Under the pieces are notes generated by a model. It was not told the DNA's origin. It did no database searches and saw only the letters and a program-made list of their open reading frames with translations. DNA of 64,000 bases. Source: Metridium senile. Its lineage: Eukaryota > Cnidaria > Anthozoa > Actiniaria > Metridiidae. Made by a program: the position numbers and the translations under genes. Where the stretch lies: assembly GCA_949775045.1 (NCBI GenBank), contig OX459097.1:2639598-2703597 (forward strand), in the 5' to 3' direction. Each line of letters begins with the position of its first letter. Positions within the stretch are counted from its first letter, which is position 1. Below, piece after piece: positions 12,562 through 61,673 of the stretch.

Positions 12562-12593
<32 letters not shown>

Positions 12594-15591: not shown

Positions 15592-18500
15592 CTAAGGTTT
15601 TTTGCTGATGTTGGACTTGGCTTCTACATAGGTGACTTGGTCTTTCTTACAGCATACTTGAGTACACGTTGATGGACAGACAGTAGCAGTAGTGCACACA
15701 GAAGGACAAGCTTTTAAATGAAGGAAAAATTTAGTGAACGTAACGCTTTATTACACTTGTTTTCAAAAACGTTGTCCTTGTTGAAATTAGTAATCAGTAA
15801 TTAGTAATTTGTAAATAGTGAAATAGGAATTAAGAAGTGAACCAAAAACAGACGCGGTCATTAGGGGTTAGAATAAATACTGAATGAATTTTTCGGTTCA
15901 CCAATGTATAGTTGCTCTACTGATGTCGACTTGATGTCGATAATTGTGCAAAATCATTAATATTCAAACTGTCAAATTTAAAAAAACCTTTGTTAGGCAC
16001 GAGCGCTCTCGAGCTCTCTTTGGCATATTATTCGGTTACGAATGTCTTCTGATAATGCCTTCGGCATGACTGCAACATGTGTTTTAGTTTAGTTTAGTTT
16101 ATTTGTCACACTACTACAATTACAATAAGAATACTATTAATACAAAAAAAAAAGGATATATAGATGTGACGGGAGTAGGAAACAGAGCTTACTCCCCAAT
16201 TGAATATCCTATTCCTACGTAAAAATATATATAATAAAAATATAAATATTAAATATAAATTGCAAAAAATACTAACGAATGTAACAAACTAAATACTAGG
16301 CTTAACAAGAATTACTGTAAAAATACACTATTGAAAAGTTTTAAAATTATTAATAATATATTTGATATATATATTTTATTATGGAGGCAAATAAGTTGAT
16401 AATTTCTCATTAAAATAACCTAAAATAAGTTTCTTGAATTTGGATAATGTTAAATTTGTTGTTTTAAAATGTCCTGGAAGACTATTCCAAAGCTTTACAG
16501 TTCTTGGTAAAATGAATGTTGGAAGTAGTTTTGTTTATGAGTGTTTAAGACTGTGTAGTTGTTTCCATCAAAGCTGCGAGAGTTAAAGTTTGGATTAGTA
16601 GAAGGGAGAAGATGTTGTTTAAGGTCAGTTTGTATGCGGTCATACGGGGTTCTCCCTTTATCCAAGTGGTAGGGGTGATCGGCGTACCTTTTAGGGTTAA
16701 AATATTTCCTGTGCGTACCTTTTAGGGTCCATTTAGAGTTTTGGCTCAAAAAACAGTTGTAAAGGTCGTTTTTACTCTGCTTTATTTGTATCTGTGCGTA
16801 CCTTTTAGGGGTCATTTTATAAAAATGTCCGCCGATCACCCCTACCACTTGGACAAAGGGAGTACCCCCCCCCCCCCCGGGAGATCAGCCATCTGTCGTC
16901 TGTATTCCAAAGGCTGCATCTCAAGAATAAAGAGTCTTTCAGTGTATGTCAGGTCTTCAGGATAGTTGAGGGTGAATTTTGTAGCTCTGCGTTGGATGTT
17001 CTCTATAAGACTTCGATGTTTTGCAACATTTGGTGACCATAAACTTGAAGCGTACTCTAGTTGTGGTCTTACCGGTGTGGAGTATAAATGGCCCCTAGTT
17101 TTCTGGTCAGTGATGACCCTGCCGCATATTCTTTTTATAAGGCCAAGTGATCGGTTGGCTTTTGTGCATGTCTCCTCTATATGTTTTGTCCAACTTAAGT
17201 CACTTGTGACGGTGACGCCAAGATCTTTAGTGTGCGTAATTTGATGAAGATCTTCATTACCAAGGTTATATTGATTTAAAAGAATAGATCTACCTCCTTT
17301 TTTGGACATATTTAATACCTTGCACTTTGCTACATTAAATTCCATATTAGAGTCGACACTCAACAATGTATACCATCAATGTCACTTTGAAGGGTGCGCT
17401 GACTTGATTCATATTCAATGACATTATAAAGCTTTGAATCGTCTGCAAAAAGAGCAACCTTAGAGCCATCTTTGACATATTCAGGCATATCATTGGCGTA
17501 GACAAGGAAGAGGAGTGGTCCCAGTATAGATCCTTGGGGTACATCTGATGTTATGGGTAACCACTCCGAAAAGGATCCGTCAATAACGACACGCTGTTTT
17601 CTGTTGCTTAAGTAATTAGTGAACCAATCAAGACGATTACCGCAGACTCCAAACTTGTGTAGCTTATTTAGAAGTATGTGGTGCGAAACCTTGTCAAATG
17701 CTTTAGATAAGTCCGTATGGACTGCATCGACTTGTTTCCCACTTGCGAGATTGTCTAAGATATCATGGTATACTTCGAGAAGCTGGGTAACAGTTGACTT
17801 CCCTTTCAAAAATCATATATCCATGTTGTGTAGCATGCCGAGTGAATTTATTTACGTTGAATGCAATGCAAATTGTACCATTAATTAATTCCTATTTCAC
17901 TATTTATAAATTACTAATTGCTATTTGCTTTTTTCAAATAGGACAACGTTTTTGAAAACAGGTGTATATAAAGAAAACATTAGTTGGCAAAAATACATTA
18001 TGAAAACATACAAGTTTTCAAAAATAAATCCAAGAACAGATTCAAGCTCTCGTAATAAGACGAATGCGTCTTTGTTTCAGTGAAAAAAGGTTTACAGTCT
18101 ATTTCTGATCATGACATCTAAGACAAACCACAGGGAGCCTAAGCTCGTCACTTGTGATGTTTATTGTATATTTGAGGCACAGTGAAAGGATATTTCGCGA
18201 CTCCATACATTTACTGTAAAACATCAGAAGCGACGAGCTTGGGAACCCTGTGGACAAACTAACCAGTTGCAAAGTTTGATGTACAGTACGTAGACTGAAC
18301 GATAAAGTTTGTAGTAAAATTGGAATGTAAGCTATAAGTTTCGAGTGCATGTGCATTAGACTGCGAACAGTCCCTTCTTTTCCCTCTAGATTCCGAGGAA
18401 AACGAGAAAAAAATGAGCATTTAAATAAAACACGGACGAGCGGGGATTGGGGGCGAAAAGGGGGAGGAGCGATGGGAGAGGAAAAGTGCTCGTTCGTTTT

Positions 18501-21500
18501 ATTAAAGTTAAAATTTTCTGAATCCGGAGGGAAAAGTAGGGACTGCTCGCAGTCTACATGTGCATGTGCATGTGCGTGTTTAATTACGAAGTGCAAACTA
18601 AATAAATTCATATTCACATTCAGTTCTCAGACCGAACCGTCAATCTTTTTAAAACTGATAGGTACAGTAACTGGAAATCTTCTCTTGTTCGTATTTTGAG
18701 TTCGTTGGAATGTATACGCATGTATACCGTTTTTGGCAATGTTTGCGCTAAACTTTTACAAATTGTGATCATGAGATTTCAAAAAGTTAAGTATATAGAG
18801 AGACTTCATGGCAGCCATGTTTGTGGACAGAACAATATAAAGCTTTTCTCTAAAGGGAACTGAAAGTCCTTCAAAAACATTTGTACTTGGGCACAAACAT
18901 GGCTGTCATGAAATCCCTCTGTAATATTAAATATTTTAAAGATAATGTTTGTCATGTACGTATATATTTATATCAAGTTTGTTTAAAAACCACGAACTAT
19001 CTTGAGATTGGCTATATCATATACAAATATAAATATGTAGATAGCAAAGAATAATTTATGTTCTTACCAGTAGGTTGAGGCGATGGTGCTGGTGCTGGTT
19101 GTGCATGGTAGTGGTAATGGTGATGTATGGGATTTGGTACTAAAATAGATAAATTGACATACTATAGCTCAGATACAGACAACCCAGGATATTAAGCGCA
19201 CAAAATAAAAAAGTTTTTTGTTTTAATTCCGGAACTCATGCCATTCAGCGATGTTTGACTTATACCTCAAATAGTAACCTAATCACAGAAATGAGATAAG
19301 TTGAAACTAGAACGACAGGTACGTACGTAACTGGGAATCAAACCAGTCGAGCCTTTACTATGTTATTGTTACCTTGCTGTGGCGTCTTGTTCTCTTTCTT
19401 TGCTTGTGGAACTGGAGTTTGAAAAAAAAAGCAGCGATTACAATTCAAATTGGTAATAAAAGGTGAAGACACACAACTGGAAGCCCCAACTATAAATGAA
19501 GATAACTATCCAAGTAACGCAGAATCGAGATGCGGCCTGGGGCGAATCGAATTAAGTCTCGCAAAGGCACTTGGGATCTTTAAATGTCACACCAACGCCA
19601 TTTTGCATTTGTTACATCAAATTTAACATTCCCAAACGCTTCATCATTCTTTCGCATTGGGTCCATTGGTGCATCAGTTGAATATCTTTCTACTATGGAG
19701 TGAAAATCTAATTATTATCGGGAAGTAGATAAGTTTCAAGTTCTTCATTGCACAGTCCATGGATTTAGTCAAAGTGTTGAGGTAAAACCTGTGACGGCAT
19801 TGCGCTGTCTGATGAGAACAGAGCTATCAAGACTTAGACTGAGCAATGCAAAACACGAAACTAATGTATTGAAACGAAATTGACCAGCGTTTCATCACAT
19901 ATTTATGGCTTGGGATACCTGTGGAAGTACACGATATGAAATCACAGCTATGACATCACTTACCAGGTTTTGACGTCACTATTACGTCAAGATAATGACG
20001 TTTGTCATCACAGTTAGGTGTTGGTGTAACAAATATTTCTCTACCTCCAGACAGCAAGACCCGATATCTATTCATTGGATCAGTTGCTCTAAAGATGACT
20101 AAACGGTGTAGTTCTGGACTCTTTACCACGTTCTTGAATCGTAAGTTGCCTTGTTTGATCAGAAAGGGTTCGTCACTGAGGTCGGTTTGTATTTCGAAAG
20201 GAATACCTGCTTTGTTGATGAAATGGACCGCCACACAGACCTCTGTGAATTAATGTAAGACATGGAGAGTTAGATAAGAAAGATACCAGCTAAAAGAAGC
20301 ACTAAGTTTTAATTACAAAAAGAACTATATTAGCGTCAGAAAAGCAAAATTTCATAGAAAAGAATTGTGTGATTGTCTGTCTGTCTGATTATGGGTTTGC
20401 TTTGTATTATCAGTTACGTTTGTCTGGTTCAGTGTCTGTCCGTTCGTTCGTTCGTTCGGGTTTTTTTTTCTGTTTTTTTTTTTCCTGTTTGTTTGTTTGT
20501 TTGTTTGTTTGTTTGTTTGTTTGTTTGTTTGTTTGTTTGTTTGTTTGTTTGTTTGTTTGTTTGTTTGTTTGTTTGTTTGTTTGTTTGTTTGTTTGTTTGT
20601 TTATTCGTTTGTTCGTTCGTTCGTTTGTTTGTTTGTTCGTTCGTTCGTTCGTTCGTTCGTTCGTTCGTTCGTTCGTTCGTTCGTTCGTTCGTTTCTTCGT
20701 TCGTTCTGTTTGTTTGTTTGATTGGCTTTAAAAAATCAGACTAGTTTGCAGAAATATTTTCGAAACTATACGTGTTTTTAAAACATTCTTGGAACATATA
20801 TAAATTGTTTATAACAATAAAACATGCCTTTTTCTTCTCATCTTACCTTTTTTTCTTTGAGAATCCAAGTGCGCGTGCTTGTTCTTATCTTTTTGCTTAT
20901 GACCTGGTAATTCAGGCGTGTTTATCGCTACAACGTCTTTACAATTTTGTAATGGGTTCTCGCTACTTGGTAATGCTTGGAAATAGAAGGAGCACCTCTG
21001 TGCAAGCTTTCCACTAGATATATCCCATTGTGAGAGCATTGAGAGTCCTTGGTTGGTAGGGGGATCGTCGACTTTAGGATTCCCACAAACAAACCAATCG
21101 TAAACTACCGGTCTGTCAGCTCTGACTTGGGCGTTGATCTCCAAAGCAGCAGGATATTTAATAGAACGATAGAGACGAAATGTCGCTGTGTTGGCTATAT
21201 GCAAGAAATAATGAATAAATATGTTTGTTATTGCTGCGAGCCATGATCAGGCGAGCAGCAACACTATTCTTGGGGTTCATGTGTGCGATATACCAGCAAA
21301 AATCAGCATGTAGGTAATTTGTTTGCGCATGCGTTGCGGAAATCATTTTTGTTGAGATGACACACACCTATTCTGTTTTGTTAAAAGTAAAACATAAACA
21401 TGGTTTGCATCACACGGATTTAATTTCGTTTTCAATTTTATAGCTCTCCAGGAAATGCACAGCATACTGAGGTTTGAATATAACGCGAACAATAAGAGCT

Positions 21501-27500: not shown

Positions 27501-30500
27501 CTCTTTATACCGGACCCTCAGAAAACTGGAATTCTCTCTAATCCGGAAACAATAGCTCTTATCGCAGATGAGCATGTGAGTCAAACAAACCAGCGGTATC
27601 GCCATGAGCGTACCATGAAAACGAGGCTCTCGGGCCAAGCTTTGCTTCTCTAGCAAAGAGTTTACTACAGATCAACACATCATCGCATCGTTTTGATAAA
27701 TATATTTGATATAGAAAGTTATTTCTGCCTCTACAATTATGATCAAACACCTCAGAGCTTTTGGATGTATGAACATATAAGCTCAGTGATACCGCTGGTT
27801 TGTTTGACTCTATTGTTGGTCCCAATTTCAATTCCAGAGACGTTGTGAAAAGAAACTCGATAAACCGGAACCCTCTTTAAACCTCTTAGTCCCAGCACTG
27901 ACCGGTATATAGGGGTTCACTGTTTATGTATGTATAGATACACCTATTTCAAAAAATCGTTGTCGCAGCCGAAGATACAGTCCATACTCTGAAGCCTGCA
28001 AAGGTTGTCGGTCTTATGAACATAATTATAGATTTATAACACGTTTTTTAAAGAAATATCAGTGTTTCATCATCTACCACTGTAACAGTGTTATAACACA
28101 ATACGTCCATCCAAAATATGCTATGAATATAACAAATAAAGAAAAAATACCGACATCAGTATACGCTCATCTCAGATATTAACAAACCTAAATTGGCCCT
28201 GCTTGGAGGAAAGACGTTCTACACAATTTATAAAGCACCTCTACAAAACTAATAACAAGAATGTCCCGGATTATCTCCAAGACATTTTTGTTCGGACAAA
28301 TCATGTACATCAACACCACCTAAGAGGCGTACATGATAATATCTTTGTCCCTAGGCCTCAAACTGAAGCGCTTAAAAAAAGCTTCATTTACAGGTGAGCG
28401 ACAATTTGGAATAGTCTTTCCACCAAAGCCAAACAGGCAACCACTCTGAAGTCATTTATTGACAACATTTAATTAATATAACATTATATCACATATTTAT
28501 TGTATATCATATATTAACTATTTTCGATACCCTTATATAATGTAGTATGTATATATTTATATCATTTTTAACACCGCTCAATGGGAGAGCACTGCATGTA
28601 AATATTTTAGTGATTTGACACCGTGTGTAAATAAAGTTTATCTATCTATCTATCCTTTGCAAGGTTCAGAGTGTGGACTGTAGCCTTGGCTGCGACAATG
28701 ATTTTTGAAATAGATGTAAATATACCCGTACTCTGTACTCACCAAAGGCTGCTGTTTCTTCTAGCGGCTCGAGGACAAATTTGTAATTTTTCTGTCGTAG
28801 ATAGTAGCCGGGAACACAAACTGATTCCAAGGATATAAATTCTTTTCCTTTTCCTGATTTAAGGATATAGGAAGAAAATCCCTTTCGAATTTTGAACACA
28901 TGACAAAAACTTGTCAGAGATACCTTACTCTCAATGGATTGAAAGCACAAGTTTTTTGTGCTGTTCTCTTGTTCTGCTGGTTTGTCTAAGGAAAATATTT
29001 TGTAGTAGGCTTCTTTAATAACTGAAAGAAAAAATGAACACGTCATGATCGATAGGAAAATGTATTATTATTTATTAAATAATTATTTCCGATTAAAGGG
29101 CACATTTAATGTGGAGCCTCGCTCTGTTGTGTAATCCCCCACCACTTATTCATGTATTTATTTTTTTAGCAATTCTTATTCTAGTATTTTTCTGTATTAT
29201 ATATTGTATGTTTAATGTGGAAGTGATTAAATAAATGTAAATTATAATTACTTACACTGCCGAGTAACAAAGAGAACAGTCAAAGAGACAAAATACCGTG
29301 TCTACATCCATTGCAGCTTCATTTGCCGCAGTTATTGTTAACATATTGCAGAAAAATCCTTATCGTAAGGGGTTTATTCCATCAGGTGAAAGTCGGCAAA
29401 AGCTTATTCTGTCAAATGTCATAGAAGATCCTATACCAGTTATAAAAACTCACGGAGCTGTAGAGCATCGGAGAAGTAAAAAAAAAAAACACTCGACTAT
29501 GGCTCATGATGTCGTCTTGCTGTACAACTCCCAGCGTGTATATATTAGAATATACAAACACGCAGGCCGTTTTATATTCCCTCGATATAAACTTATTATA
29601 GACCATATTAACTTAATAGTGTTTATACAAAATATCAAGTTAGTTTACCTCTATCAGCGAATCCAAGAGTATTTACGGCCACTCGGGCCTTTGTCATTGG
29701 ATCTTCTCCGGGTTTTGCACTAGTTACAATTTTAACAAGGTTCATTGAGGCTTGTTTGGTGACATGTTTAGGATTCAGAAACCCTGCAGGAGAGACTTTT
29801 TCATCTGTGCTTAATGGCAGGAATGGTGTCACAACCGTCTCTGCTTGCTTCTTACCAGAAGCAAATAATTGAGATTGTGCACCGTATGATGAAACGTTAA
29901 CAGATGAATTACCACCAGCTGAGCTTGATGAAGAACCTCTTTGGGATGATGAAGAGGTTGTAAAGTTGGATGCTCTGGCCACAGTTTCTACTCCTGCTAC
30001 TACTCTCACTCCAGTTCCCCCTCCTGCTCCAGCTGCTGCTCCTACTTCGGCTCCTTCTCCTGTTCCTGCTCCTTCTCCTGTTCCTGCTCCTTCTCCTGTT
30101 CCTGCTCCTTCTCCTGTTCCTGCTCCTGCTCCAGTTCCAGTTCCAGTTCCAGTTCCAGTTCCAGTTCCAGTTCCAGTTCCAGTTCCAGTTCCAGTTCCAG
30201 CTCCAGCTCCAGCTCCAGCTCCAGCTCCAGCTCCAGCTCCAGCTCCAGCTCCAGCTCCAGCTCTTCCAACCAAGTTAGATGGGTCAGTGATTGACACAGA
30301 CGAAGCAGCTCCTTTACTTACAACAATGTTACCTTTAGTGTTTGTAAACAAATTAATGATTCTTCTACTGCTGCGAGGATCGGCCTTCAAAGCCAGTGAA
30401 ATAGCCTTTGTCATAATGCTCTTTGCAATGTTTCTACCAGCCTCGGCACCAACTTTGGCTCCGTATTCTTGGCCAGCTATCGCGCCGGCCTTTGCCCCTG

Positions 30501-41055: not shown

Positions 41056-41116
<61 letters not shown>

Positions 41117-47100: not shown

Positions 47101-50100
47101 GTATAGTATTTCTAAGTGTTGGTGTTGTGATGCTAATTTGCCAACCATTTTAACAATTTATGTTTTAATTTCCTTTTTTTTTTTTTTTGACAAAATATGT
47201 CACTATACGTCCACTAGACTGCTGTGCAGACTCGGTTTTTTGCGCTTAAAATATTTGCCAAAAAATTTGAGTCTGCTGAACCGAGCTGCTAATCTGTATG
47301 CAATATGCACGTGATGACGTAATAAAATATTACCTCAACTATCCAATCAGAAGCTGGATTTTTTGGCAAAGTCGACTATGCACAGTGCCGAAGCTGCGAG
47401 AAGCGAACAAAATCCGTTGAGGATCTTATACATTTCGTTGATTGGTTACAGTGCTCATTCCCAGGCTTTTTCAGGTATGAAAAAGATAACATGCATGAAC
47501 GCTCATTGGATGATTTGGACGAGCTGTTCCAAGGTAGAGAAAACTGCTTTAGAAAGATTTTTTACACGTCAATTCAAAACAATGGAGAAAGACCAAGAAT
47601 GCGAACAAGCATTAAGATCGCACTTTCGAAATTCACTTGTTTGATTTTATTGAAATCTCAAAGTTCAAACCACGGGCGCCAGAGTATCCTTCGCGTTTGT
47701 ATATGCTTTAACCCTTTGACTCCTACGGCGCCCGAAACGGCCCGTAAAAAATGACCTTGCTTTGAAAATGTTTTTTAAACTAGCCAAATTTTTCCAGCCG
47801 TTTGAATGTTAGTAAGCACTAGGAAGTTTTTCAAATTTTCATAGCATGTCAGTCACAAGAAACGAGCAATTTTAGCACAAAAATTCCATATGAACTTTAG
47901 GAAAGTCAAAAATGACCGTTTTTGCCTTATTTTTCAATAGTGAAAATCACACTTTTTTTACCCTGGATTTTTTATCGAAAAAAAATCGTTTTTAGACGAA
48001 AAGGCCGTTTTCACAACAAAATTCAGTCCTTGTGCTATAGCTTTGGTAAGTTTTTTCACTTTTTTTTCACTTCACGAACTGAGCTGCGGTCGTTTGTTTA
48101 CGGCCATTTTGATACGCACGTGTTTTCAAGTATTTACGACTGCAAAGCATTGTGGGTAACCATGACAATTTTCCACATGGAGTACCCCCACCGTCCTTTT
48201 ATACATTTTTTAGAAGTCTACTGTCACCTTACCCTGGGTTCCAGCGGCTCTAGAGGGGATTGGGGCGAGACAACGGCGGGGAGCGAAAGGCGGAGAGAGC
48301 CCCTGGTCTCACGAGGCACGAATCTCACTTTCGCGCCTAATGAGGTATCAAATTCTCGCCAAACCGGTTTTTGTACTTTGTTGATTCTCGCCAAACCGGT
48401 TTTTGTACTTTGTTGACATTAAGGCTCACGTGGGCGGTCGACCGGGAAAAATGACAACTCTGACAGCGTAGCATGAATTTGTCTCCTCCAAAAACTCCCG
48501 TTAAAAAAATCATAAATAAGCAAAGTTTCGGCCTAGAAGATATCTGCAGACTGTGCAATATAAACGTACGAATATCTGGACTTGGTCGATTTAATATTTC
48601 AAGCGGAAAAAAGTCTATCGAACTTAAACTCGCAGAAAGGTTATCTGTTGTGGTCGGAGCGCCAATAGTTCAAGATGATAATCTCTCATCTATTATTTGC
48701 TCCAAATGCAAACGAACCTTTGAAAAACTTGAAAAAAGCTCAAACGAACTGCGCGAATTTCAACAGATGTGCATTCTTTCAATGCAACAACATAGCGCGT
48801 ACAAAGAGGTGCCACCGTGATTCCCCAAGCTCAAGTTCTAATGCGAGGAAGAAGAGAACTATACTATCAGAGAATACCCAAACCCATGAACTTAATGTTC
48901 ACGACGATTTTATAGTTCCACCAAAGCCCAAAGACAGAAATGCTGTCATTGAGGTAAGGATAAAGAGGAATTACGGTCGCAGTCGCGGCCCGTATGTAGT
49001 ATTTAGTACGCACTCACACATATAGCACTCACAGTGTTAGACCTATATTCGTAAAGTGGAACTGTTGTCGATGAATAATAGTAGAAATACTATGTTGTTA
49101 CAATTCAGAATCATAAATCAATTGACGGACAATTAAAGTACAATTTATAATGAAGTCACAGGTCAAGACTAATCGTAGTTAAAGAGGGGATAAGCGACTA
49201 TTAAAATAAGCGACAGTTCAAAGGCCGTCTCGGTTTAATAATAACACTAGGTGGTCACTTAAAGAATACGTATAGATCCGAATTTCCATTCAGACAACTA
49301 GCTATGTACGTGGTAGACCTTCATGTGACCAAATCTTTAATATTAATATCTAAGATTTAATTCTCATATGAAAATTGTAATATTCAGTTGAAATTGATAT
49401 GTACGTAAGTCGTACAATATTATTGGTATTTTTAAAGTATGATTTTGAATGTTTATGTATATTCATACTGTTGCAGGTTATAATCTATTACCCCTCAAAA
49501 CAAGTAAAAAAGCGCATTGTCGACGAATTGGATGCCCGTCTTGTAAGATCAATTGCCTGTGAACAACGAGAAGCTGCAACTAATGCTATATGGTGTTCCA
49601 CTGATCTGAAAGAGCTAATTTTGCAGAAAGTGGAACGCGATGTAAAGAAAGAGAGCACAGATGTGTGTAGTAGAAGCAATCCTTCCTGCCTATCTAATTC
49701 AGAACCTGAAAGTTTGATATGCCTGAAAGATTCCACTGTGGTAAAAGAGCTTCAAGTACGTGGACCAATACTGCATAGAGTTTTGAAGGCTGTTGCTTCT
49801 GGGAAAGACTCGAACATAAAGAAACCTGAACAAATGGATAAAGTGACCAGAGCAGTAAGCATTTCTTCATCTGTGTTGTTCAGATGCCGCACTCCATCAA
49901 TGTCAGCTTTAGCTTATCGATTGTCAATATTAATGTGGCATGGAGGAGCTGAAAAACAGGTATATAAATACTGATCATAAATCTCAAAGCTTGACATTTC
50001 AGTAATTGAATAATAATTGTAATAATCAAAAATATCAAAGAATTTAAGGAAATATGATCATTGTTATTATTTAACAATCTTTAGCAAAATTGACTATTTT

Positions 50101-53100
50101 TAATTTAAATGGAAACTAGCAAGTAAACAAGTATAGGCTACATTGGTGTCTAATATAAATACTAGGTAAATATGTAAATATTAACACACTTAACTTTGCC
50201 AACATTTTGAACTTGAGCATTTTAATTTATATAATTAGCTATATTAATTTTAGTTCACAAATTAATAGATCAATGGTATACATTATCATGTGGCTAATTA
50301 ATCTATTTACTATTGCAGCTGTATTCAAGATTATGCAAAAGTGGACTCTGTATGAGTCATTGGAGAACGTTGAAAAAAATTGACCAGCTTGGCCTTGGCT
50401 TTGACGAGAAAGTCAAAGAATGGAAAGAGACCCAAATCAATCATACCCAGATATGTACAGTAGTAGATGCTATTCAGGATATTTTTGATGTAACACCTTC
50501 AACAACAACACCTTCTCTTGCCCCTCTAGAGCCCCTGGAACCCTGGGTAGCAACACCTGTACAAACTGTAATAACTGCTGCAACAACTGTTTCACCCGTC
50601 CACACATTTGATGGCACATCTTTGAAGGAAAGAGTGAACACAATGGTTGGAGGAAAGTTCAACGACGAGGTCTTTGCAATGGTGGTAAAGCATACTAAGG
50701 AAAACACTCGAAAAGCAGACATCATTGAAAAATTGTCAAAAGGTCCTTCTAGCTACCAACTCACAGGGGACAATCTAGACTTGCTCATCAAAGTGAAACA
50801 CATGTCTAGCACCAACCAAAACAACAGTATTCACTGGTTTAATTTAAATGGTGTGCTAAACAGGATCCAAGGAACCCATTTGTCGGACAAAGTACCTATT
50901 AAATCCATCTTAGATGTTGAAAATTCAGATTTTCTTCCCTCGTACCAAGATAACCTGGACTTCCTTTGTGACATGATACCACTAGTTACTCGGGTAGCAG
51001 TAACAAAGATCCCTGCTCTCCAAGAATTTAGAAATATAGTGGTTTGGCATATTCCACACCAATACTCTAAGGAGATGTCTATGAAATCACAGCAGGTATA
51101 ATTACAATCATTATTCATGAATATTATCACATTCATTGTGATCATTGTTATAATCCTTATTGTAATTATTCATTGTCATTGTCAATAGTTCTGATAATTA
51201 TTATCATAATCATTGTCATTGACACAATCATTATCATAATTGTCATTGCCACAACCATCATCATAATAATTGTCATTGCCACAACCATTATCATAATTGT
51301 CATTGACACAATCATTATTGTAATCATTGTCATTGACACAATCATTATCATAATCATTGTCATTGACACAATCATTATCATAATCAGTATCATAATTGTC
51401 ATTGACACAACCATTATCATAATTGTCATTGACACAATCATTATTGTAATCATTGTCATTGACACAATCATTATCATAATCATTGTCATTGACACAATCA
51501 TTATCATAATCAGTATCATAATTGTCATTGACACAACCATTATCATAATTGTCATTGACACAATCATTATTGTAATCATTGTCATTGACACAATCATTAT
51601 CATAATCATTGTCATTGACACAATCATTATCATAATCAGTATCATTTCCACAATCATTATCATAATCTTTGTCATTGCCACAATCATTATCATAATACCT
51701 ATTATAATGTATCACTATATAATTAATCATCATAATTTTATTATCAATCTATCATCATTATTTTTTTCATGCAAGGTTCCTCTTGGATTGCTGTTCAAGA
51801 ATGAAAATGTCAACGAGGAGATGATAGACATCCTACAAGTTCTTCATGATAAGTATCTGCCAATTAGTAAGAACATCCAAGGTGATGAAGAGGTTGTTGA
51901 GATAATGGAAAAGCTGTTTTTTGGTGGAGATGAACTAACAGATGAGCGGGCTACACACTCGAAGGATGCCAGATCTGATGGTGACAACCAATTTGAACGT
52001 CTAGAGGGTTTCCTGTCCAAAGTAGAAGATTGGCATGCAGTGCGTATTTTATACCAGGTGATATTTTACAACTAGTATCTGGAAAGTTAACACATATTTT
52101 TTAACTACCTTCAAAGAAAAATCATATTTTGTCAGTGTTTTTGGACAATTACTATTTTGAAACTTCACAATTTTAGATTAATTTGACATAAATTGAAACT
52201 TAAAGTGAAAACACTAAAACCATGAAATACAAACAAAACAGTTTCTAACCAATAGTTTTTAATAAGTCACTATTTAGTCAGTATCACTCATCCAGAAATT
52301 TGATTCTATTTCATGGATATAGTGTTTGCACTCTATCACCTTAAATTGTATGTTAACAGTAACCTTAATAACCACTTTAAGATATACACCTATTTCAATT
52401 AACATTGTCCATCTGGAATGGTTGATCTGATACAAATAGGAATTGTGGGAGTTCATTAAATTTCAAATACATTGTTTTAATCACACTTGAATGGTGCTGA
52501 ATTACAGATAATAGTATTTCAGAAGTTAACATTAATATTCAAGTGTGATTATAATAGTACATTTACAGTTCAATGACCTCCCACAATATATCAGTCTCAG
52601 ATCAACCATTCCAGATGGAAAACATTAATTGAAATAGGTGTATATTCAATTTTCAAGCCAATGATATTGTGTTTTGATCATTATAGGTCTTGTATGACAT
52701 ATTCTTCCGCCCTAACTCTGGTAATGATATTGGTACTATGTGCAGTAATATGAATGTTATTAACAATGTGAATGCTAAGACCACTAACGTGTTGGATAAT
52801 CTGAACTATTGTAAAGACTATGTCAATTTGGAGACTGATGCCTACATTGCTGCAGCAGTTCTTAAGTATTTCAGCATGGATTCACTAACCACACCAGCAG
52901 AATCATTTATCCCTCCTAACATCTTACATACTAGCTCAAAAGAGATCAAGAGGAAATGGTTGCATCGACACATGGAAAAAATGCTTTTCAAATTTGTAAT
53001 GACTGATCAGCAGAAAGAGTTGGATGGGATGAGAAACCAATTAATAGAGGCAAACCGTCCTAAGCCAGTGCCTAAATTTAGCTGTTTTGTCTGTGGTAAG

Positions 53101-56100
53101 GAATACACATATTTAAAATCCAGAGACAACCACATGAGAAAGGTACATCCTGATTCTGAGGGCCCAATTGAGTCAAGTGATCCATCGACAAAGAAACCAG
53201 AACAACCTGATTCAAAAGAAAGAGATGATGTGTACAATTATGCAAGATTACGTCTTAGCATGGGTCTCTATCTAAGAAACTTTGATGACTCTATAAAGGA
53301 GGGAGATGGGCTACGTACCCTTAGATGTTGGAAATTTGCCTTGTTATTGTACAGAGCAAACAACCACACTAAATATGCCCTTGCTGCTTTACGACTTCAG
53401 GCATTTACCCAAGCTATGCTATCTCCACGCCTTGCCCACACTCTGATGTGGAACCGGACAGTGAATAATAAAGGTGGTGTTGGCAAAAACATTCCTATGG
53501 ACTTGAGATTAGAACACTTAAATAACCTTCTTAAGGGATTGCTAAAGCATCTAGGTCCAAACCTAACTGAAAGTGCAGCAAGCAGATGCAGCAAGTCCAT
53601 TGGTCACTTTGAGAGATTGTTGGACGCTGTTGATGATGACCTAAAATTAAACCGACCAACTGGGCATCACAAAGTGCAGAAGTCTGAAGCTGACTTCAAA
53701 GCACTTGTATCTCAGTTGGCATACAAAGCAGATGTGTTCAAAGATAATCCCTCGAGCGAAAGAGAGTACACAGTTTTGACAAATTTTAGACGTAACTTGT
53801 TGTCTGGTCTTGACTTTTCATCACTGAACAGGTGGATAACACAACACAAGAAAAACTTTTTCAAACAAGAACCCATTGTATGACAGTGAACTGTTTTATT
53901 TATTAATTTTATATAGAAGATATACAAGGAAATATTGGAATTTTTGATATGTGAAAGAAATTATTATTCTAACCACTCCAGTAATTTCATGTTGAGCATT
54001 ATGTTTATTACCTTTTAATATTGCTTGTTCAAGTTTATTTCAGTATTATCAGCCCTTTAAACTGAAATTGCACTGTGTAATACAATTATAAAAAAATATT
54101 TTCCATTTGAAATGCATTTTATTAAGCTTCTTCCAATGTGAAGTACAATATATTGAATTTACTACTATTCCCAAAAAAATATTTTTGGATTTGTGATAAG
54201 ATATATAACTGTTAACTAACAGTTTTTTTTAATTGTATTTGGTTATTTACAATTAACCATACATTTACCGGTAGTGTACATACAATATATAATATTCACT
54301 ATCATTGAACAATTATTAGTAATACATCAATCAAATAAATGCCAATTTGTATTTTGATTAAAATTATTGCTTGCTGTGCTGTACATTGTCACTTGGAGTA
54401 TATAAAAATGTTGAAAACTTCATGAGAACAAACGGTATAACTGCATTAGTAATTCTTACAACCAAGTACTATTAAGAACCCTATTAGAAATCACACATTG
54501 TTGGTGCTGACAAATACTTTATATGAGTACATGGCATTTCTTGTATGTTGATCAAATATGCCAATTTGTATTTAATTAAAAATTTAAAACTTGCTTGTGT
54601 GCAGTCCTTAAGCATTCTCTTAACAGTTCTCTCATGTTGACAACCCATGGATGCTTTATAAATATACACATCACACATATTGTATTACTCTAGAGTGCAT
54701 TTAGTAAAAGCGTGAAACACTATTTTGTACTATTTTATGCTAATTCTTTTGTTTTCTATTTTTCAACTAGAACTATTTTGCACAATTTAGTAATTAGTGT
54801 TTCACGCTTTTACTGAATGCACTCTACTAGGTTTTTGCTAATTCTATTGTTAAGTTAGCAACTCAATTTGCCAATTTATACCGTTTGTAAAATATATCTG
54901 TGTCTCAACAAGATTGGTTATTTTGGAATATACTTAAATGTGAATATATTACAGTAAAAACCAGCATATGACCAGGTTAAGGACCACTAGGCTAAAAATC
55001 TAGACTGGTTCTTATATGAAAGGTTTCAAGATTTATTTGGTCATTTGAAAAATACACTTTGAGTCTGAATATGACCAAATTTAAAATCAATGAAAAAAAA
55101 AATGTTTTACAAATGTTTTATCAGTTATTTTTCAATGAGAATACATTCATCATTCAGATGCTTCTACATAACAATTTATATAACATAAAAAAAACTATAT
55201 AAGGGAAATTGTTTTTGCTTTGTAAATAAGAACCATTTAAGAACCACCTTATCCTAATTCCTCACTAAATACCAATTATATAAGAATCACTTACGCCTAA
55301 CCTTGAAAAATAGTGCTTCTTATATGCAGGTTTTTACTGTACTTAATACCATGTAGTAGCTGCAATTTAAATAACCAACTTGAATAACCATTGTTCTTGA
55401 CTCACTGGCCTCTCATTCATGTAAAAACTCCATTGTATTCCATCATGAACACAAAGCTTGTCAGTCAAGAACAATAGCAGGCCGTCATATTTCGATTTGG
55501 TCTATTAGTACAATATAAAAATAGCAAACGTTGCAATTAGAGTACAAACATTAAAAGCGGGGAACATAATTAGTACTAAATAGTGAAATTTTTGGTTAAT
55601 TATATTGTTTTCTATTGTTTAATTATCACTAATTAGTACTACTTGTTTCACGGGTATGATATTTGTACTCTAGCTTTATAAACCTTAGTGTATCAAACAT
55701 GTAACTCCATAATACCTGATAACTCTGTCATATCTGAAGCCACAGAACCATCAGAATCACTTTCACTGTCTGATTCATAATAACCTCCAAATGCATAGTC
55801 AATATCCATATTGATGTTATCATCATCCTCTGCAATTTCAGACTCCATGTTAAGTTCAAAGTCCTCAAATACATCTCTAATCATGTACAAAATTTTAACA
55901 GCTTGTGATTTCTTAAATACTGGAGTAAGTTCAATTAAGTCATCTAAGTTGAAAATGCTCTTGGCATTTTTAATCACACTCTTGATAAGGGAATCAGTAA
56001 ATCCGGTTGTTGCTTCAGACGACAAAACATAAGCTGGACAATTCAATTCCAATTGTTTTTTATGGTCAGTCAAAAGTTCTCTCAGTTCATCTTTTTGCTG

Positions 56101-59100
56101 TTTTGTTACTTTCCTTTTGGTAATTGGTTTTTGTGTAGAAGGTATATTAGCAAATACGGGAACTTCAATATTACACTTGCCATCAAAACAGTTACATTGT
56201 TCATGACATATTATGCAGCAGTCGTGACCTGCCTGCAATTCACTTCTTTTGACATCCTCCCCAAAGTCTTTGAGCAGTATTTCTCTAAGGCATTTGCCAA
56301 CAGTATTAGTAGCATATTCTTTCATGGATGGGGAACATTTCTTGAGATGGATACCTGCATAAAATAATAATGACTTTGCAGGATTTCCATCTCGACCAGC
56401 TCTTCCCATCTCTTGTACAAAGTCATCCACTTCACGGGGTGGTCCATAATGAATAACATTGCGTACATCCTTCAGGTTGACACCCATTCCTAAGGCTGTT
56501 GTTGCAAATACAACCCTACATATACCATCTGTATTAAACAGAGACTCTGCAACAGTTTCTTTGTGTTTGGGCAAGGTGTTAGCATGGTACATTGCAATTA
56601 ATGAATTTTGGCAAACTTGCTTTGCACCTTCTGGGAAAAATGCCTTTTTCCCAAGTTCATACTTAAAAAATTGATATAGTTTTCCACAATGCTTTTGCGA
56701 TTTGCAATATACTATAGTTCTTGGAGTGGTGTTTCTTTCATCTCTAAGAATATCTACCAACCACTGAAAACAATCCAATGTCTTATTCACTTTAGTCTTA
56801 TACAAATAAATATTTGCACGATCCGGACTGACAGTTATCTGATGTGTATCTGGCTTTAAACCCAGGCCTTCAATGGTGTCCTTCCTGACTTCTGCTGTGG
56901 CTGTTGCAGTCAAAGCTAGCACTGGACAACCAGCAGGCAACAGAGACCTTACTTCTCCAAGCCTGAAGAAGGATTGTCTAAAGGCAGCCTTTTTCTCCTT
57001 GGCATTTCCTTTTCCCCTTGAAAATAAAGCATAGATAAAGAGACATAAGTAAAAGAACATAGTTTAAAATGATATAATGTGAGTTGGTGGAAATGAAACA
57101 TGCTTAAAGTAAACTTAGGGTTGTGAGCATGTATGTAAAATCAATTCAAAATCAGTGGCAAAAAAAAAACATTTCTAAGTTAAGAATCGACTTCTTAACT
57201 TGTTTAGTAGTTTTAATAAATTAAAACTAATAGGAGTTGATTCTTAAAAGAAGTGAATTAGAACTAATAAATACTTTTATACTGATTTGTGTGGATTTAC
57301 TACGATTAAAAGTTTAATTTAGTTTGATTTGTGTGGATCAAGGTTTAAAGTTTAAGTAATTTATACGTTTTTTTATACAGTGTGCTCCATGTTCTCGACG
57401 TCAAACAACACAGTCCAATTTAAAGTGAAGTTATTGTGTTTGTATCGGTGAATCCAATAAAATTATCTGATAAGTTATGATAATAATCAACTATGTTTTG
57501 TTAATGTAAGTAAACTAATCGGAAAAATCAAAATGTTTTGAGGTTTTTAGTTGTTATTTACTGTCGGTTGATCCGTTACAGAATGCGTTGCTCTTTTATT
57601 AAAACTTGTAGTTCAACTAAGTTATATAAAGTGCAATTCAAACTTACCACTTAGGAACTACATGTGCCTCATCTGTTACAAGACCAAATAACCGTTCCTG
57701 GTATACAGGAGATTTCAGCATTTCACGCCATTTTTGGTTCTCCACTATCGATTCAGGATTTGCGAATACAATGGAGAACTTGCCAACTTTCACGTCCGCT
57801 TCAGCGACATTTTCATCAGAAAGCGAACACGATGAAATGCCAACAGCTTCCAATTCTTTCATGTGCGAAGAAATAAGCGAATTCAGCGGCCATACGACCA
57901 CAATTATTGGCTTTGAGGGGTAATCAAAACCTGTCTTGCTTAAATAAGAAGCGACTCCAGGAACAGCTTGGAATATCAGCGATTTTCCGCTTCCTGTAGG
58001 CAATACAGCTATTACATCTCTCCTTTTAATAAAAGTCAAAAGGGCATCTTCTTGAACTTCTTTCATCTGCTGGACATTTGGGAAACTTTCGAGTGTATTC
58101 TCTACAGCTTTACGATATTCTTGAACAAACACTAGATCATCATCATTCACTTCGCTCGCCATTTTGTTTGTGGAAACCGGTTTTATCACAAGGTGATAAA
58201 AATAACTCAGACTGACCAATGAGAGCGCAGTTTCTATCGGATCTTATTGAGAGCCAATCAAATGACGAGTACAGATTCTGTACTCGCGAAAGTGAGATTC
58301 GTGCCTCGTGAGACCAGGGGCTCTCTCCGCCTTTCGCTCCCCGCCGTTGTCTCGCCCCAATCCCCTCTAGAGCCGCTGGAACCCAGGGTACTGTCACCTC
58401 GGTTTTCTGCCAAAATTTCGCGCTTGTTGTGTTCCTCTATCATCACAACTTCGATAAATAGCCGCGGCAGGTCCGAGAATTTGCCTTTAGTCCAACTCCA
58501 AACCTGACTTTGTTCTAAGCCCGCCAAAACCGAATGAACCAAACATCGATCATTTTTTGCTGACAAAGTGAAATTCCTCGCTGATTTCTTCCAGAAAGTG
58601 AGCTCTTTGCTACCTTGAAGCTTAATGATGCTTTTCCAGTAGTGACTAAAGGCAAAATATGACCCTAAAATTAACGAAATTCCCATTTAAGCCAACTTTG
58701 AACCAGTGTAAATATCCAACAATGCTTCCAAACGATCTAAAAGTCATGTGGCCTGAGAACTTGAGCCCCTGAGATTACAAAACCGCAGCACTTTCCATGG
58801 TAACGCCAAATATGGAGTCAAGAAATCCTACGGATCGTTTATATTCAGAAAATCGCTCAAAAATGTCAAAAAAGCCCAGTAGTCAAAGGGTTAATCTTTC
58901 TTTTATTCACTGATAACGTTCAATGGTCACTTTTGCATGGGTACGATTGACCTTTTAAATTCATCTGGTACCCATGCAGGTTAAACGCCTTCTTGATTGT
59001 ATTACTATCTATTTTGGATTGAGGCAATAACAGGTCCAGTTTCCAAGTCGATTTTAACAAAGGCAATGTTAAGTTGAACCTAATACCTTCATTTAAAAAA

Positions 59101-61673
59101 CAGCATTGTATTATGTATACTCATATTCACAAATAGCAGTTTGAACAAGCCGAAATAATGAAATTGAACCTTTACTGACAAACAGTACCTACTTTTACGC
59201 AAAAAATCCAGCGTAACAGTTGTCTTGTTTTTTTTTTTTTATTATCGGCGATGGAGTGAAAATTCATCTGGTACCCATGCAGGTTAAACGCCTTCTTGAT
59301 TGTATTACTATCTATTTTTGATTGAAGCAATAACAGGTCCAGTTTCCAAGTCAATTTTAACAAAGGCAATGTTAAGTTGAACCTAATACCTTCATTTAAA
59401 AAACAGCATTGTATTATGTATAATCATATTCACAAATAGCAGTTTGAACAAGCCGAACTAATGAAATTGAACCTTTACTGACAAACAGTACCTACTTTTA
59501 CGCAAAAAATCCAGCTAACAGTTCTCTTGTTTTTTTATTATCGGCTATGGAGTGAAGTGAAAAACATATGAAGAAAACAATTGTGAATATAACAAAATTG
59601 AATTGAGGAGGATAAATATAGTGAGATAAGGGACACTTGATCATGAGATCATGAGATCATGAGATCATTTTCAAGAGGCCTTTAGTGTATAGAATAAATC
59701 AACACGACCCTTATATAGCGTGACTAACGTTTACCTCAATATTATAGCTACTACTAGTATTAAAGAAAATATCAAAATACACTTTAAGGTCTTACCTGCT
59801 ACAAAAGGCTTTGGTTTTTCAATACTGTTAATACCTTGAACCAAAATAAAAAACAACGACGAGACCATATGTGCGATATTTCTCTTGAGAGCCATTACAA
59901 TCAGAGGTTATAAAATAACGTTTGTCGTCAGGGATACCCGCCTTTGAAAAGAGACGCTAATTATTCTTACTTAACGGTCACTTGGACGTCAACAACCAGT
60001 TTATCGGTAAATAAACCCATTCAAAAGGGTTAATCAAAGAACAATCGTCAAAAGACGGTCTGGTATTGTCCAATCTCTTGGAGATTTCGCTTGGACGAAG
60101 GAAACAAGAAGTACACAACCCCCAACGCAGCCTACGATCCAACATTGCAGTCTGCTTGGTCGTCCCTCTTCTCGACTCTTCATAAAGGCACTTTCCGAGT
60201 ATTTAACAATTTACCACCTGATGTTACAAACTGTCGACTACATTTCAAATCTTTATCAAATCAAACATTTAAAATACTAATGAAAGAAACAAAACTTATT
60301 TATTCAAATCATTCGTAATCAAGTTTCTTAAAGTTCAATTTCATATATATTTATTGTTTCATTTTATACAAATAAATTTTATATATTATACTTTATGTAT
60401 TTTCTATTTTCTATTTAAATTCTTATATTATATACTATTCAAAATGTTAGATATTACATTTGTCTTTTTATTAGTATTATTATCTAATTTTTTCTTAGTT
60501 TTATAATTTATTCTTAGTTTTAAAAAATTTGAGTCTGCTGAACCGAGCTGCTAATCCGTATGCAATATGCACGTGATGACGCAATAAAATATTACCTCAA
60601 CTATCCAATCAGAAGCTGGATTTTTTGGCAAAGTCGACTATGCAGAGTGCCGAAGCTGCGAGAAGCGAACAAAATCCGTTGAGGATCTTATACATTTCGT
60701 TGATTGGTTACCGTGCTCATTCCCAGGCTTTTTCGGGTATGAAAAAGAAAACATGAACGCTCATTGGATGATTTGGACAAGCTGTTCCAAGGTAGAGAAA
60801 ACTGTTTTAGAAAGATTTTTCACACGTCAATTCAAAACAATGGAGAAAGACCAAGAATGCGATCAAGCATTTAGAATCACTTTCGAAATTCACTTGTTTG
60901 ATTTGATTGAAATCTCAAAGTTCAAACCACGGGCGCCAGAGTATCCTTCGCGTTTGTATATGCTTTAATCTTTCTTTTATTCACTGATAACGTTCAATGG
61001 TCACTTTTGCATGGGTACGATTGACCTTTTAAATTCATCTGGTACCCATGCAGGTTAAACGCCTTCTTGATTGTATTACTATCTATTTTGGATTGAGGCA
61101 ATAACAGGTCCAGTTTCCAAGTCGATTTTAACAAAGGCAATGTTAAGTTGAACCTAATACCTTCATTTAAAAAACAGCATTGTATTATGTATACTCATAT
61201 TCACAAATAGCAGTTTGAACAAGCCGAAATAATGAAATTGAACCTTTACTGACAAACAGTACCTACTTTTACGCAAAAAATCCAGCTAACAGTTCTCTTG
61301 TTTTTTTTATTATCGGCGATGGACTGAAGTGAAAAACATATGAAGAAAACAATTGTGAATATAACAAAATTGAATTGAGGAGGATAAATATAGTGATGTA
61401 ACATTATTTCAGTCTTGAGATAAGGGACACTTGATCATGAGATCATTTTCAAGAGGCCTTTAGTGTATAGAATAAATCAACAAGACCCTTATATAGCGTG
61501 ACTAACGTTTACCTCAATATTATAGCTACTACTAGTATTAAAGAAAATATCAAAATACACTTTAAGGTCTTACCTGCTACAAAAGGCTTTGGTTTTTCAA
61601 TACTGTTAATAACTTGAACCAAAATAAAAAACAACGACGAGACCATATATACGATATTTCTCTTGAGAGCCAT
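36517..61673 (-). CDS. Secreted PA14 / silk-like / AbfB / minicollagen-type CRD protein, paralogue B, with two alternative signal-peptide exons
   Basis: Exons: first exon 59895-59796 or its duplicate 61673-61574, then 47024-46806, 45551-45440, 45042-44858, 44638-43823, 41419-41147, 40293-39961, 39310-39032, 38448-38410, 37288-37223 and 36647-36517. From either first exon (both 100 nt, phase 1) they join in frame to 850 residues. Intron positions and phases match paralogue A exactly. The PA14-like part is nearly the same as in A. The silk-like block is a pure run of Gly-Ala without the Gly-Thr section. The linker is shorter (HNHYHYHAQPAPSPQP). The Cys-rich tail is C-PPV-C-TTAPV-C-PST-C-TQV-CC, followed by a C-terminus four residues longer than in A (KKTVSKP). 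Most of intron 1 (12.8 kb) is a nested transposon that carries its own two genes. Same inferred role as A: a secreted, cross-linked structural protein. Confidence 0.85.
36925..37155. mobile_element. MITE with CGAATAAGCGCCG ends in intron 10 of paralogue B
   Basis: Arms TTTACTCGAATAAGTTCCGC and GCGGCGCTTATTCGAATAAA, about 230 bp apart. Confidence 0.55.
38511..38629. mobile_element. hAT-like MITE with 8-bp target duplication
   Basis: Ends TAGTCTCCTTCGCAGGC and GCCTGCAAAGGAGGATAT. GTACGATT at 38503-38510 and 38630-38637. 119 bp. Confidence 0.7.
38761..39014. mobile_element. MITE with about 40-bp TIRs beside a splice donor of paralogue B
   Basis: Near-perfect arms starting CACTGCAAAAACGGCTGAGT. 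The right end lies within 20 bp of the donor site of exon 39310-39032. Confidence 0.8.
41020..41115. repeat. (TCC)n and (TCA)n microsatellite
   Basis: CTC repeats followed by ATC repeats just after exon 6 of paralogue B. Asp/Glu or Met/Arg runs in open frames are artefacts. Confidence 0.95.
41600..43690. other. Intron 5 of paralogue B, repeat-derived
   Basis: Includes a GTCGGGC/GCCCGAC palindrome at 41618-41640 and an inverted-repeat element 43065-43684 (arms TTTGATATCCCTTGATGAAG and inverse). No coding gene was supported in 41420-43822. Confidence 0.6.
44180..44310. repeat. Hexanucleotide array coding for (GA)n in paralogue B exon 5
   Basis: Uniform plus-strand CCAGCT hexamers, read as Gly-Ala on the minus strand. 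More homogeneous than the array in paralogue A. Confidence 0.92.
45093..45196. repeat. Local duplicate of intron/exon 3 border in paralogue B
   Basis: Matches 45353-45465, including TGGCGTTGGTTTTGTCTT and TCACAACTTACTTGGTGTA, so it carries a short piece of exon 3 with its donor. Confidence 0.65.
45671..46362. mobile_element. 692-bp foldback-type element in intron 2 of paralogue B
   Basis: Ends CAGGGGACCTTCGCGACC and GGTCGCGAAGGTCCCCTG; imperfect complementarity runs through most of its length. Intron 2 of paralogue A (32964-33248) lacks it. Confidence 0.75.
48230..48335 (+). repeat. Left terminal inverted repeat of the 10.16-kb transposon
   Basis: 106 bp, a perfect reverse complement of 58285-58390. 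GC-rich compared with its surroundings. Confidence 0.95.
48473..53883 (+). CDS. DUF6589-like putative transposase with CxxC/CxxC and C2H2 zinc fingers (frameshifted in exon 1)
   Basis: Five exons: 48473-48953, 49477-49959, 50319-51095, 51776-52057 and 52687-53883. They give about 1070 residues, all introns being phase 0 with GT/AG borders. The N-terminus has paired cysteines (CRLC near residue 24, CSKC about 55 residues later), like a ZAD-type finger. The last exon has a C2H2 finger (C-x2-C-x12-H-x4-H, from 53082). The segments GDELTDER, ERLEGFLSKVEDWH and NIPMDLRLEHLNNLLKG match the DUF6589 family common in cnidarian and fungal genomes; the acidic residues there are candidate catalytic positions. 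Exon 1 is 481 nt and needs a one-base shift near 48800-48818: without it TGA at 48818 ends the frame, and the downstream frame runs to the splice donor. The gene starts 137 bp inside the left TIR of the 10.2-kb transposon. It is probably the transposase, a role inferred from context. Confidence 0.8.
51185..51690. repeat. 126-bp higher-order tandem repeat in transposase intron 3
   Basis: Units of TCATTGACACAATCATTATC are grouped into a 126-bp period (CAGTATCAT at 51385, 51511 and 51637). Long open frames on both strands here are artefacts. Confidence 0.9.
52382..52646. mobile_element. MITE in transposase intron 4
   Basis: Arms ATATACACCTATTTCAATTA and inverse, with CATCTGGAATGGTTGATCTG/CAGATCAACCATTCCAGATG inside. 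Confidence 0.75.
53884..55692. other. Non-coding centre of the 10.16-kb transposon with three inserted MITEs
   Basis: Lies between the converging stop codons of transposase and helicase. Contains palindromic elements at 54691-54826 (TAGAGTGCAT ends), 54952-55339 (CAGTAAAAACC ends, TA duplication, Tc1/mariner- or pogo-like) and 55539-55672 (AGAGTACAAACAT ends). No gene seen. Confidence 0.7.
55693..58162 (-). CDS. RecQ-like superfamily 2 DNA helicase carried by the transposon
   Basis: Exons 58162-57648 and 57016-55693 join in frame (TG|G, Trp) to 612 residues. The start is the ATG at 58162 (MASEVNDD), since the frame upstream of it has no other ATG. Helicase motifs in order: motif 0 with Gln (QQMKEVQEDALL), Walker A PTGSGKS at 55-61, WPLNSLISSHMKEL, DEAH at 164-167, LALTATAT at 205-212, TIVYCKSQKHCG, FATTALGMGVNLKDV and QEMGRAGRDG. 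After this comes a RecQ-type zinc-binding set (HDCCIICHEQCNCFDGKC). No HRDC domain is seen. The C-terminus is acidic. Host RecQ helicases are the alternative, but this gene begins 122 bp inside the right TIR and converges on the transposase-like gene. The coding frame is intact. Confidence 0.88.
58285..58390 (-). repeat. Right terminal inverted repeat of the 10.16-kb transposon
   Basis: 106 bp, a perfect reverse complement of 48230-48335. Ends ...GGAACCCAGGGTA and is followed by the 9-bp target duplication CTGTCACCT. Confidence 0.95.
59796..59895 (-). CDS. Signal-peptide exon of paralogue B, copy 1
   Basis: Reads MALKRNIAHMVSSLFFILVQ and continues INSIEKPKPFVA, ending in phase 1 with donor GTAAGACC. 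It has a charged N-terminus and a hydrophobic core, as in a signal peptide. It lies in the first unit of a tandem duplication and joins in frame to exon 47024-46806. Confidence 0.8.

Follow-up and report, generated by a model that had tools for sequence, protein, structure and literature searches.

The window, that is the whole stretch of DNA that was analysed (64,000 nucleotides from Metridium senile), corresponds to C3:2639598-2703597 of a 389-Mb genome. Two complete genes of 11 exons each were identified in it, both on the minus strand: gene 1 (34826-15592) and gene 2 (61673-36517), the interval 15592-61673 having the gene 1 stop at one end and a gene 2 ATG at the other. Exon models were built from homologous blocks detected by blastn and from the reading frames of the window. 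The features, with their window coordinates and the evidence for them, are as follows.

34727-34826, minus strand: gene 1 exon 1, which is presumed to encode the signal peptide (phase 1 with a GT donor, hydrophobic segment; a further in-frame ATG lies at 34841)
33249-33467, minus strand: gene 1 exon 2, PA14 part 1 (gene model and PA14 relatives)
32852-32963, minus strand: gene 1 exon 3, PA14 part 2 (gene model and PA14 relatives)
32030-32194, minus strand: decayed duplicate of exon 4, inside gene 1 intron 3
31657-31841, minus strand: gene 1 exon 4, PA14 part 3 (gene model and PA14 relatives)
29649-30611, minus strand: gene 1 exon 5, GA/GT silk-like tract between an Ala/Gly region and a second flank, both of them conserved
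28743-29021, minus strand: gene 1 exon 6, first part of the AbfB-like trefoil (gene model, Pfam, PDB match)
20847-21194, minus strand: gene 1 exon 7, rest of the AbfB-like trefoil (ungapped match across the exon 6/7 join)
19964-20242, minus strand: gene 1 exon 8, undescribed domain of 92 aa that contains two Cys (no Pfam family exceeding the cut-off)
19373-19411, minus strand: gene 1 exon 9, linker (gene model)
19068-19139, minus strand: gene 1 exon 10, His/Pro-rich linker (gene model, copy alignment)
15592-15710, minus strand: gene 1 exon 11, C3C5C3C3CC tail and stop (gene model, tail search)
61574-61673, minus strand: gene 2 exon 1, upstream copy (gene model)
59796-59895, minus strand: gene 2 alternative exon 1, duplicate (donor placed by homology)
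46806-47024, minus strand: gene 2 exon 2, PA14 part 1 (gene model)
45440-45551, minus strand: gene 2 exon 3, PA14 part 2 (gene model)
44858-45042, minus strand: gene 2 exon 4, PA14 part 3 (gene model)
43823-44638, minus strand: gene 2 exon 5, Ala/Gly region and GA tract (gene model)
41147-41419, minus strand: gene 2 exon 6, first part of the AbfB-like segment (gene model, Pfam, PDB match)
39961-40293, minus strand: gene 2 exon 7, rest of the AbfB-like segment (gene model, PDB match)
39032-39310, minus strand: gene 2 exon 8, undescribed domain (gene model, outside relative)
38410-38448, minus strand: gene 2 exon 9, linker (gene model)
37223-37288, minus strand: gene 2 exon 10, His/Pro linker (gene model, copy alignment)
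36517-36647, minus strand: gene 2 exon 11, C3C5C3C3CC tail and stop (gene model, tail search)

In the predicted models all 20 introns of genes 1 and 2 are bounded by GT and AG, and they are of phase 1 throughout apart from intron 3, which is of phase 2. The exons join in frame to give predicted products of 904 aa for gene 1, counted from the ATG common to gene 2 (909 aa if the upstream ATG is used), and 850 aa for gene 2. The two genes share 82% identity over 846 aligned codons, with an overall dN/dS of 0.39. Since the exons could be aligned almost completely (2644 of 2730 bp) and the introns hardly at all (525 of 16520 bp), the models represent true coding structure rather than a chance reading. 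All 14 cysteines are common to both genes; exons 1-5 have none, exons 6-8 have eight and the tail has the other six. The hydrophobic stretch that follows the ATG is presumed to be a signal peptide. Two residues at the start of exon 2 are uncertain because another in-frame AG lies 6 bases downstream of its acceptor. Exon 1 of gene 2 is present as a near-duplicate pair (61673-61574 and approximately 59895-59796) on a 1.78-kb tandem duplication, the copies of which lie at window 59260-60489 and 61031-62264 (95.7%).

Several other elements were observed around the exons. Gene 2 intron 1 carries a DNA transposon of approximately 10.2 kb (window 48230-58390) with perfect 106-bp terminal inverted repeats and a 9-bp flanking direct repeat, the frames of which correspond to DUF6589 and zf-AD (under cut-off) on the plus strand and to RecQ-like DEAD/Helicase_C on the minus strand; a satellite-like array of approximately 30-bp units is located within it (window 51196-51696). 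Frames resembling reverse transcriptase were noted by eye in gene 1 intron 10 (window 16842-17812), and the one that was tested had no Pfam match. Downstream of gene 1, on the minus strand, are an amidase (fatty-acid-amidase-like) gene and a rhodopsin-family receptor gene (window 3789-6463 and 9302-12983); these neighbours and the presence of introns are consistent with animal DNA. Rfam and tRNA searches found nothing. Pfam matches to TrAA12, Yae1_N, DUF6861, DUF1269, Rick_17kDa_Anti and HMG_WDHD1 were all below cut-off and were treated as chance.

The initial annotation had described two paralogues with an 11-exon plan remaining in frame to the stop, which the splice sites, the 82% identity and the exon-only conservation bore out, and every element that it had named was found (a PA14-like block, GA/GT repeats, SLESVCVPGY(Y/F)LRQKNY, a Pro/His linker and a C-x3-C-x5-C-x3-C-x3-CC tail). 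It had also spoken of a tandem pair; the window does contain two complete genes, but these proved to be part of an array. Exon 11 was located at no fewer than eight places, all on the minus strand of C3:2655192-2888468, i.e. within 233 kb of one contig. The same eight copies matched exon 10 as well when the linker and tail served as the query of a protein search, in which 23 candidates were scored, the counts being lower bounds; the remaining 4 matches of that search had E values of 0.34 or worse. Genes 3 to 6, which lie in the flanking DNA outside the window, are on the same strand with 11 of 11 exons each, while copies 7 and 8 are based on their exon 10 and exon 11 matches alone. In the 100 kb left of the window, nothing matched gene 2 at E 1e-3.

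Genes 3 and 4 belong to a recent duplication of approximately 39.7 kb that is 99.9% identical over 20 kb, or alternatively represent an assembly effect; the segmental duplication that holds them was observed at C3:2717554-2745233 and C3:2757221-2784890 (99.8%). In these two of the six copies read, exon 10 differs by a single base where it begins, which shifts the tail out of frame. Because exon 10 is symmetric, the frame would be retained in genes 3 and 4 if this exon were skipped. An alignment of genes 1, 2, 3, 5 and 6, in which gene 3 was included to exon 9 only and gene 4 was omitted as its duplicate, contained 605 invariant columns out of 908. The eight non-tail Cys were found in all five of these genes, gene 5 having two extra, and the six tail Cys in all four in-frame tails (genes 1, 2, 5 and 6). 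Based on the six pairs formed by genes 1, 2, 5 and 6, module-average dN/dS was 0.19-0.25 for PA14, the exon 8 domain, the linker and the tail, and reached its highest values among mature modules in exon 5 (0.49) and AbfB exons 6-7 (0.47). The figure for the signal peptide exon, 3.59, is unreliable, there being very few synonymous differences. The family is thus under purifying selection.

Exons 2-4 gave scores of 14.2 and 16.2 bits against Pfam PA14 (PF07691) in the whole proteins and 18.6 bits when the gene 1 module was searched alone, all below the curated score of 24 bits. An overlapping match to GLEYA, which we take to be a fold related to PA14, was likewise under cut-off. A search of the anemone's own genome with PF07691 returned 17 matches over cut-off elsewhere, among which the array was absent. 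When frames from 8 of these 17 loci (a set of 54 frames) were compared with the joined exons 2-4 of gene 1, all eight gave colinear matches (E 2e-14 to 4e-7), extending up to residues 10-168 of 172; for exons 2-4 of gene 2, locus L004 was among the matches listed, at 1.5e-14. This colinearity gives good support to PA14 membership and to both internal joins, and that exons 2-4 encode a PA14 module appears well supported, the assignment being weak alone and secure through relatives. Searching the PDB with the PA14 part gave one chance match from the single sequence and one from a two-row profile, and no PA14 chain. The PA14 domains of the eight loci (L001-L008) lie in long frames free of interruptions, which have a hydrophobic segment near the N-terminus, and two of these loci, L002 and L005, carry SPGVPEKITE-type repeats and His-rich stretches.

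Exon 5 consists of two strongly conserved flanks, approximately 95 residues at its start and 80 at its end (first part …GAVNGAKAGAKAGAIAGQEYGAKVGAEAGR.IAKSIMTKA…), and a middle composed of a CTCCAG-type DNA hexamer repeat that encodes GA/GT runs of greatly differing length among genes 1, 2, 3, 5 and 6. One relative was identified, a 363-aa product (P0002) of a 13,314-bp contig other than that of the array, which was the sole match among 304 candidates and showed 72% identity over 94% of the first 112 residues (E 4.5e-39). It has both flanks, its similarity begins and ends near the exon borders, and its middle is as rich in G/A/S/T (79%) as that of gene 1 (79%; gene 2, 88%) while having no long GA run. 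Since the flanks are kept and the run is variable or absent, the conserved unit is the flanks, and the silk-like part is a spacer constrained in composition and free in length. The first flank was predicted to be all-helical with a mean pLDDT of 67 from a two-row alignment; Foldseek with this model gave a top match of E 1.8 and no convincing structural relative, and no match to the exon 5 part was found in prokaryote genomes and viral contigs.

Exons 6 and 7 exceeded the curated score of 22.8 bits for Pfam AbfB (PF05270) in both genes (33.6 bits in gene 1, 29.3 in gene 2), the match covering about 46 of 137 profile positions (approximately 46-93). Repeats 1 and 3 of the AbfB fold were read by eye, one repeat being clear. 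The top PDB match was 3kmv (E 1.4e-8 for gene 1 and 1.4e-4 for gene 2), and its ungapped course across the exon 6/7 join supports that splice. The aligned PDB motif is YL[RK]H, with His in all five alignments shown among 9 PDB sequences listed; in the array the motif is [YF]LRQ, with Gln in place of the His in 6 of 6 copies. This His is presumably an arabinose-contacting residue of the ligand site. Given the partial match and the His to Gln replacement, glycan binding by the AbfB-like trefoil is unproven; it is possible, and not to be deduced from the residues. A six-frame AbfB search of the own genome missed the exon-split array and found two other matches, both on C1, which were rejected as relatives, being distant and having in common only the AbfB motif.

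Exon 8 matched no Pfam family over cut-off, its PDB profile search gave four matches at E 0.34 or worse that were taken as chance, and its structure model was uninformative (pLDDT 36). A single relative was detected among three candidates, a product of 103 aa (P0001) on a 502-bp contig, with 66% identity and an E value of 1.8e-29; the similarity ends at the exon 8 border. Exon 8 is a real domain-sized unit, undescribed within the libraries searched. A protein search with the larger region of gene 1 residues 560-860 matched none of 1221 candidates.

The proteins end in a single CRD-like unit, CPSVCTTATVCPSTCTQVCC and variants, which has the pattern C-x3-C-x5-C-x3-C-x3-CC in 4 of 4 in-frame tails (genes 1, 2, 5 and 6) and is preceded by a Pro-rich stretch (AQPAPAPSPQPT or AQPAPSPQPT). 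In minicollagens the canonical cysteine-rich domain (CRD) reads CX3CX3CX3CX3CC, and its position 11 is a conserved Pro (PMC4863159); a second paper gives an identical Cys pattern (PMC3145756). The tail does not conform to it, the gap between the second and third Cys being 5 instead of 3. The position-11 Pro is absent, a Pro being located directly after the third Cys, at position 10 counted from the first Cys (genes 1, 2, 5 and 6). In the available description of myxozoan Ncol-5, the C-terminal CRD reads C...C.........C...C...CC and the KR motif is absent (PMC7981951). In the translations of genes 1 and 2 no Gly-X-Y repeat was seen. The one KR in their first 60 residues, at positions 4 and 5, belongs to the presumed signal peptide, and none lies between that peptide and PA14. 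A phmmer search of the tail against the PDB, a library in which short chains may not be present, returned no minicollagen CRD. With six clustered Cys at the chain end, the tail may plausibly be CRD-like in action.

The modules named in the initial annotation fared unevenly. Profile searches placed AbfB over its cut-off and PA14, taken alone, under its own; the former upholds an AbfB-like module, but not its glycan binding, with some 46 of 137 positions matched and the His replaced in all six copies. The silk-like Gly-Ala tract is present, but as a hexamer microsatellite whose length varies strongly and which has no long run in P0002. What was called a minicollagen-type tail is indeed a Cys tail behind a Pro-rich stretch, but it departs from the canonical CRD spacing and comes with neither KR propeptide nor Gly-X-Y.

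Judged from these modules, the genes most likely encode a structural protein that is secreted and crosslinked by disulfides, with a folded head for binding and a spacer that can extend, and the locus is best explained as a family of such proteins amplified in tandem. Through its folded head (PA14, AbfB-like trefoil and the new domain) the protein would attach to glycans or to other partners in the matrix, the Ala/Gly region together with the G/A/S/T tract would serve as a flexible, extensible spacer, and the Pro/His linker and six-Cys tail could enter a disulfide network, as with minicollagen-type tails. The copies of the array might then provide dosage and variants in spacer length. As to where such a protein acts, our first choice is the stinging or sticking capsules (nematocysts) of cnidarians, be it in the wall, the tubule or the matrix, because of the tail and the lectin-type, silk-like and CRD precedents in capsule proteins, although we hold it tentatively and put it somewhat short of an even chance. 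Modules that are lectin-like (as in NOWA and nematogalectin), silk-like (as in cnidoin) or of the Cys-tail type already occur in capsules, in other combinations. Against a capsule location are the noncanonical tail, present as one C-terminal unit, the lack of a KR propeptide and of Gly-X-Y, the replacement of the AbfB His, the absence of a minicollagen CRD from the PDB matches of the tail, and a tail that is out of frame in 2 of 6 copies unless exon 10 is skipped. The absent KR weakens the case, though Ncol-5, in the available text, is reported without it too (PMC7981951). The cnidarian AbfB-domain transcripts found in print are, in the accessible part of the source, those of the basal disc and not of the nematocyte (PMC5080974). 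More doubtful, and rather unlikely, is the proposal that these proteins form a third capsule-building class besides minicollagens and cnidoin, in which a single chain with two binding-type folds, an undescribed domain and a length-tunable silk-like spacer would dock by its widened CRD into the minicollagen disulfide network; it would come from an array of about eight genes, with copies differing most visibly in spacer length.

The main rival is a protein that epidermal gland cells secrete as part of an adhesive, mucus, cuticle or tube, which is quite possible though short of probable. Here PA14 and the trefoil would attach to glycans on surfaces, the secretion would be cured by the His/Pro linker and the Cys tail, and the low-complexity tract would toughen it. 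The absence of a nematocyst-type KR propeptide from genes 1 and 2 fits this account, as do, in the available portions of the sources, two AbfB-domain transcripts in the gene list of the adhesive basal disc of Hydra (PMC5080974), the beta-trefoil PPODs of the Hydra cuticle, which bind sulfated glycans (PMC3531485), and the common occurrence of silk-like proteins across animal materials (PMC4944945). A six-Cys tail after a Pro-rich stretch is, however, nearer to minicollagen-type tails than to the secretions described in the accessible texts, and the loss of the AbfB His also speaks against it. Extracellular-type modules and mostly phase-1 introns would suit a disulfide-crosslinked protein of the extracellular or skeletal organic matrix (mesoglea or calcifying epithelium) with no capsule link, and mineralised matrices contain Gly-rich modular proteins according to the available text of one study (PMC4944945); yet no classical ECM module was matched in Pfam, only AbfB and weak PA14-type matches, and the main text of a Nematostella matrisome paper (PMC12549020) mentions neither PA14 nor arabinofuranosidase; we consider this origin improbable. 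A fast-evolving array of secreted or surface recognition proteins of immune type, with the trefoil as the variable recognition part, would account for the tandem arrangement and for the top dN/dS values of exon 5 and exons 6-7 (0.49 and 0.47), but the mature-module values, which are averages and not single sites, are all 0.5 or less, the rest of the protein is strongly conserved and a crosslinking-type tail would be unusual in a soluble receptor; we consider it very improbable.

Should the preferred capsule location be correct, one chain would unite functions so far found in separate cnidocyst proteins, and the array would offer a natural length series of elastic spacers, of use for capsule mechanics and biomaterials. 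Even as an adhesive or cuticle protein, it would present a combination not found described, one domain outside the searched libraries and about eight copies. An array of about that number makes dosage and spacer length testable copy by copy.

Among known systems, NOWA has a lectin domain and reportedly also minicollagen CRDs. NOWA and nematogalectin resemble the array proteins, as far as their available descriptions go, in joining a lectin-type fold to a structural tail; to our knowledge their lectin folds are different and they are without PA14, AbfB-type or GA tract. A silk-like protein of a sea anemone, which we take to be aneroin, is said to have been described by Yang et al.; the likeness to it, as a silk-like protein of a sea anemone, is by name and description alone. 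Nematogalectin is presented, in the accessible text, as a scaffold between minicollagens and glycans (PMC9205923). Cnidoin combines a silk-like core with CRDs and is alike, as available descriptions show it, in being secreted and in having a low-complexity silk-like stretch together with a minicollagen-type Cys-rich domain; its own features, in the accessible text, are GXGQQ-type repeats containing Cys, a CRD at either end and a long propeptide that terminates in KR (PMC4321713), whereas the array proteins have a Cys-free GA/GT tract, a single noncanonical tail, PA14, AbfB and new domains, and no KR propeptide.

Minicollagens are similar in the Pro-rich stretch adjoining a six-Cys tail. Unlike them, the array proteins have no Gly-X-Y triple helix, no N-terminal CRD and a large folded head. 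Ncol-5 also has a widened gap between the second and third Cys (9 residues, compared with 5 in the array and the canonical 3) and no KR, but its flanks are Ser/Gly-rich and not Pro-rich in the text available (PMC7981951). The two AbfB-domain proteins of the Hydra basal disc (HYRNA1402_6988 and HYRNA1402_5493, with 5.17 and 4.80 in the FC column) share an AbfB segment in a cnidarian protein; they are of 310 and 588 aa, and their description in the accessible part of the paper mentions no PA14, silk tract or CRD (PMC5080974).

In the titles and passages of the open-access literature no description of the module combination was found, nor of PA14 together with nematocyst or minicollagen. The accessible parts of this literature gave only a thrombospondin study for the PA14 domain in Cnidaria and only the Hydra adhesive work (PMC5080974) for arabinofuranosidase with nematocyst, and no such architecture appeared in titles or abstracts on cnidoin, silk-like anemone proteins or the minicollagen CRD. 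The modules and the type of tail are rated as known or nearly so, and the combination, the exon 8 domain and the array as new.
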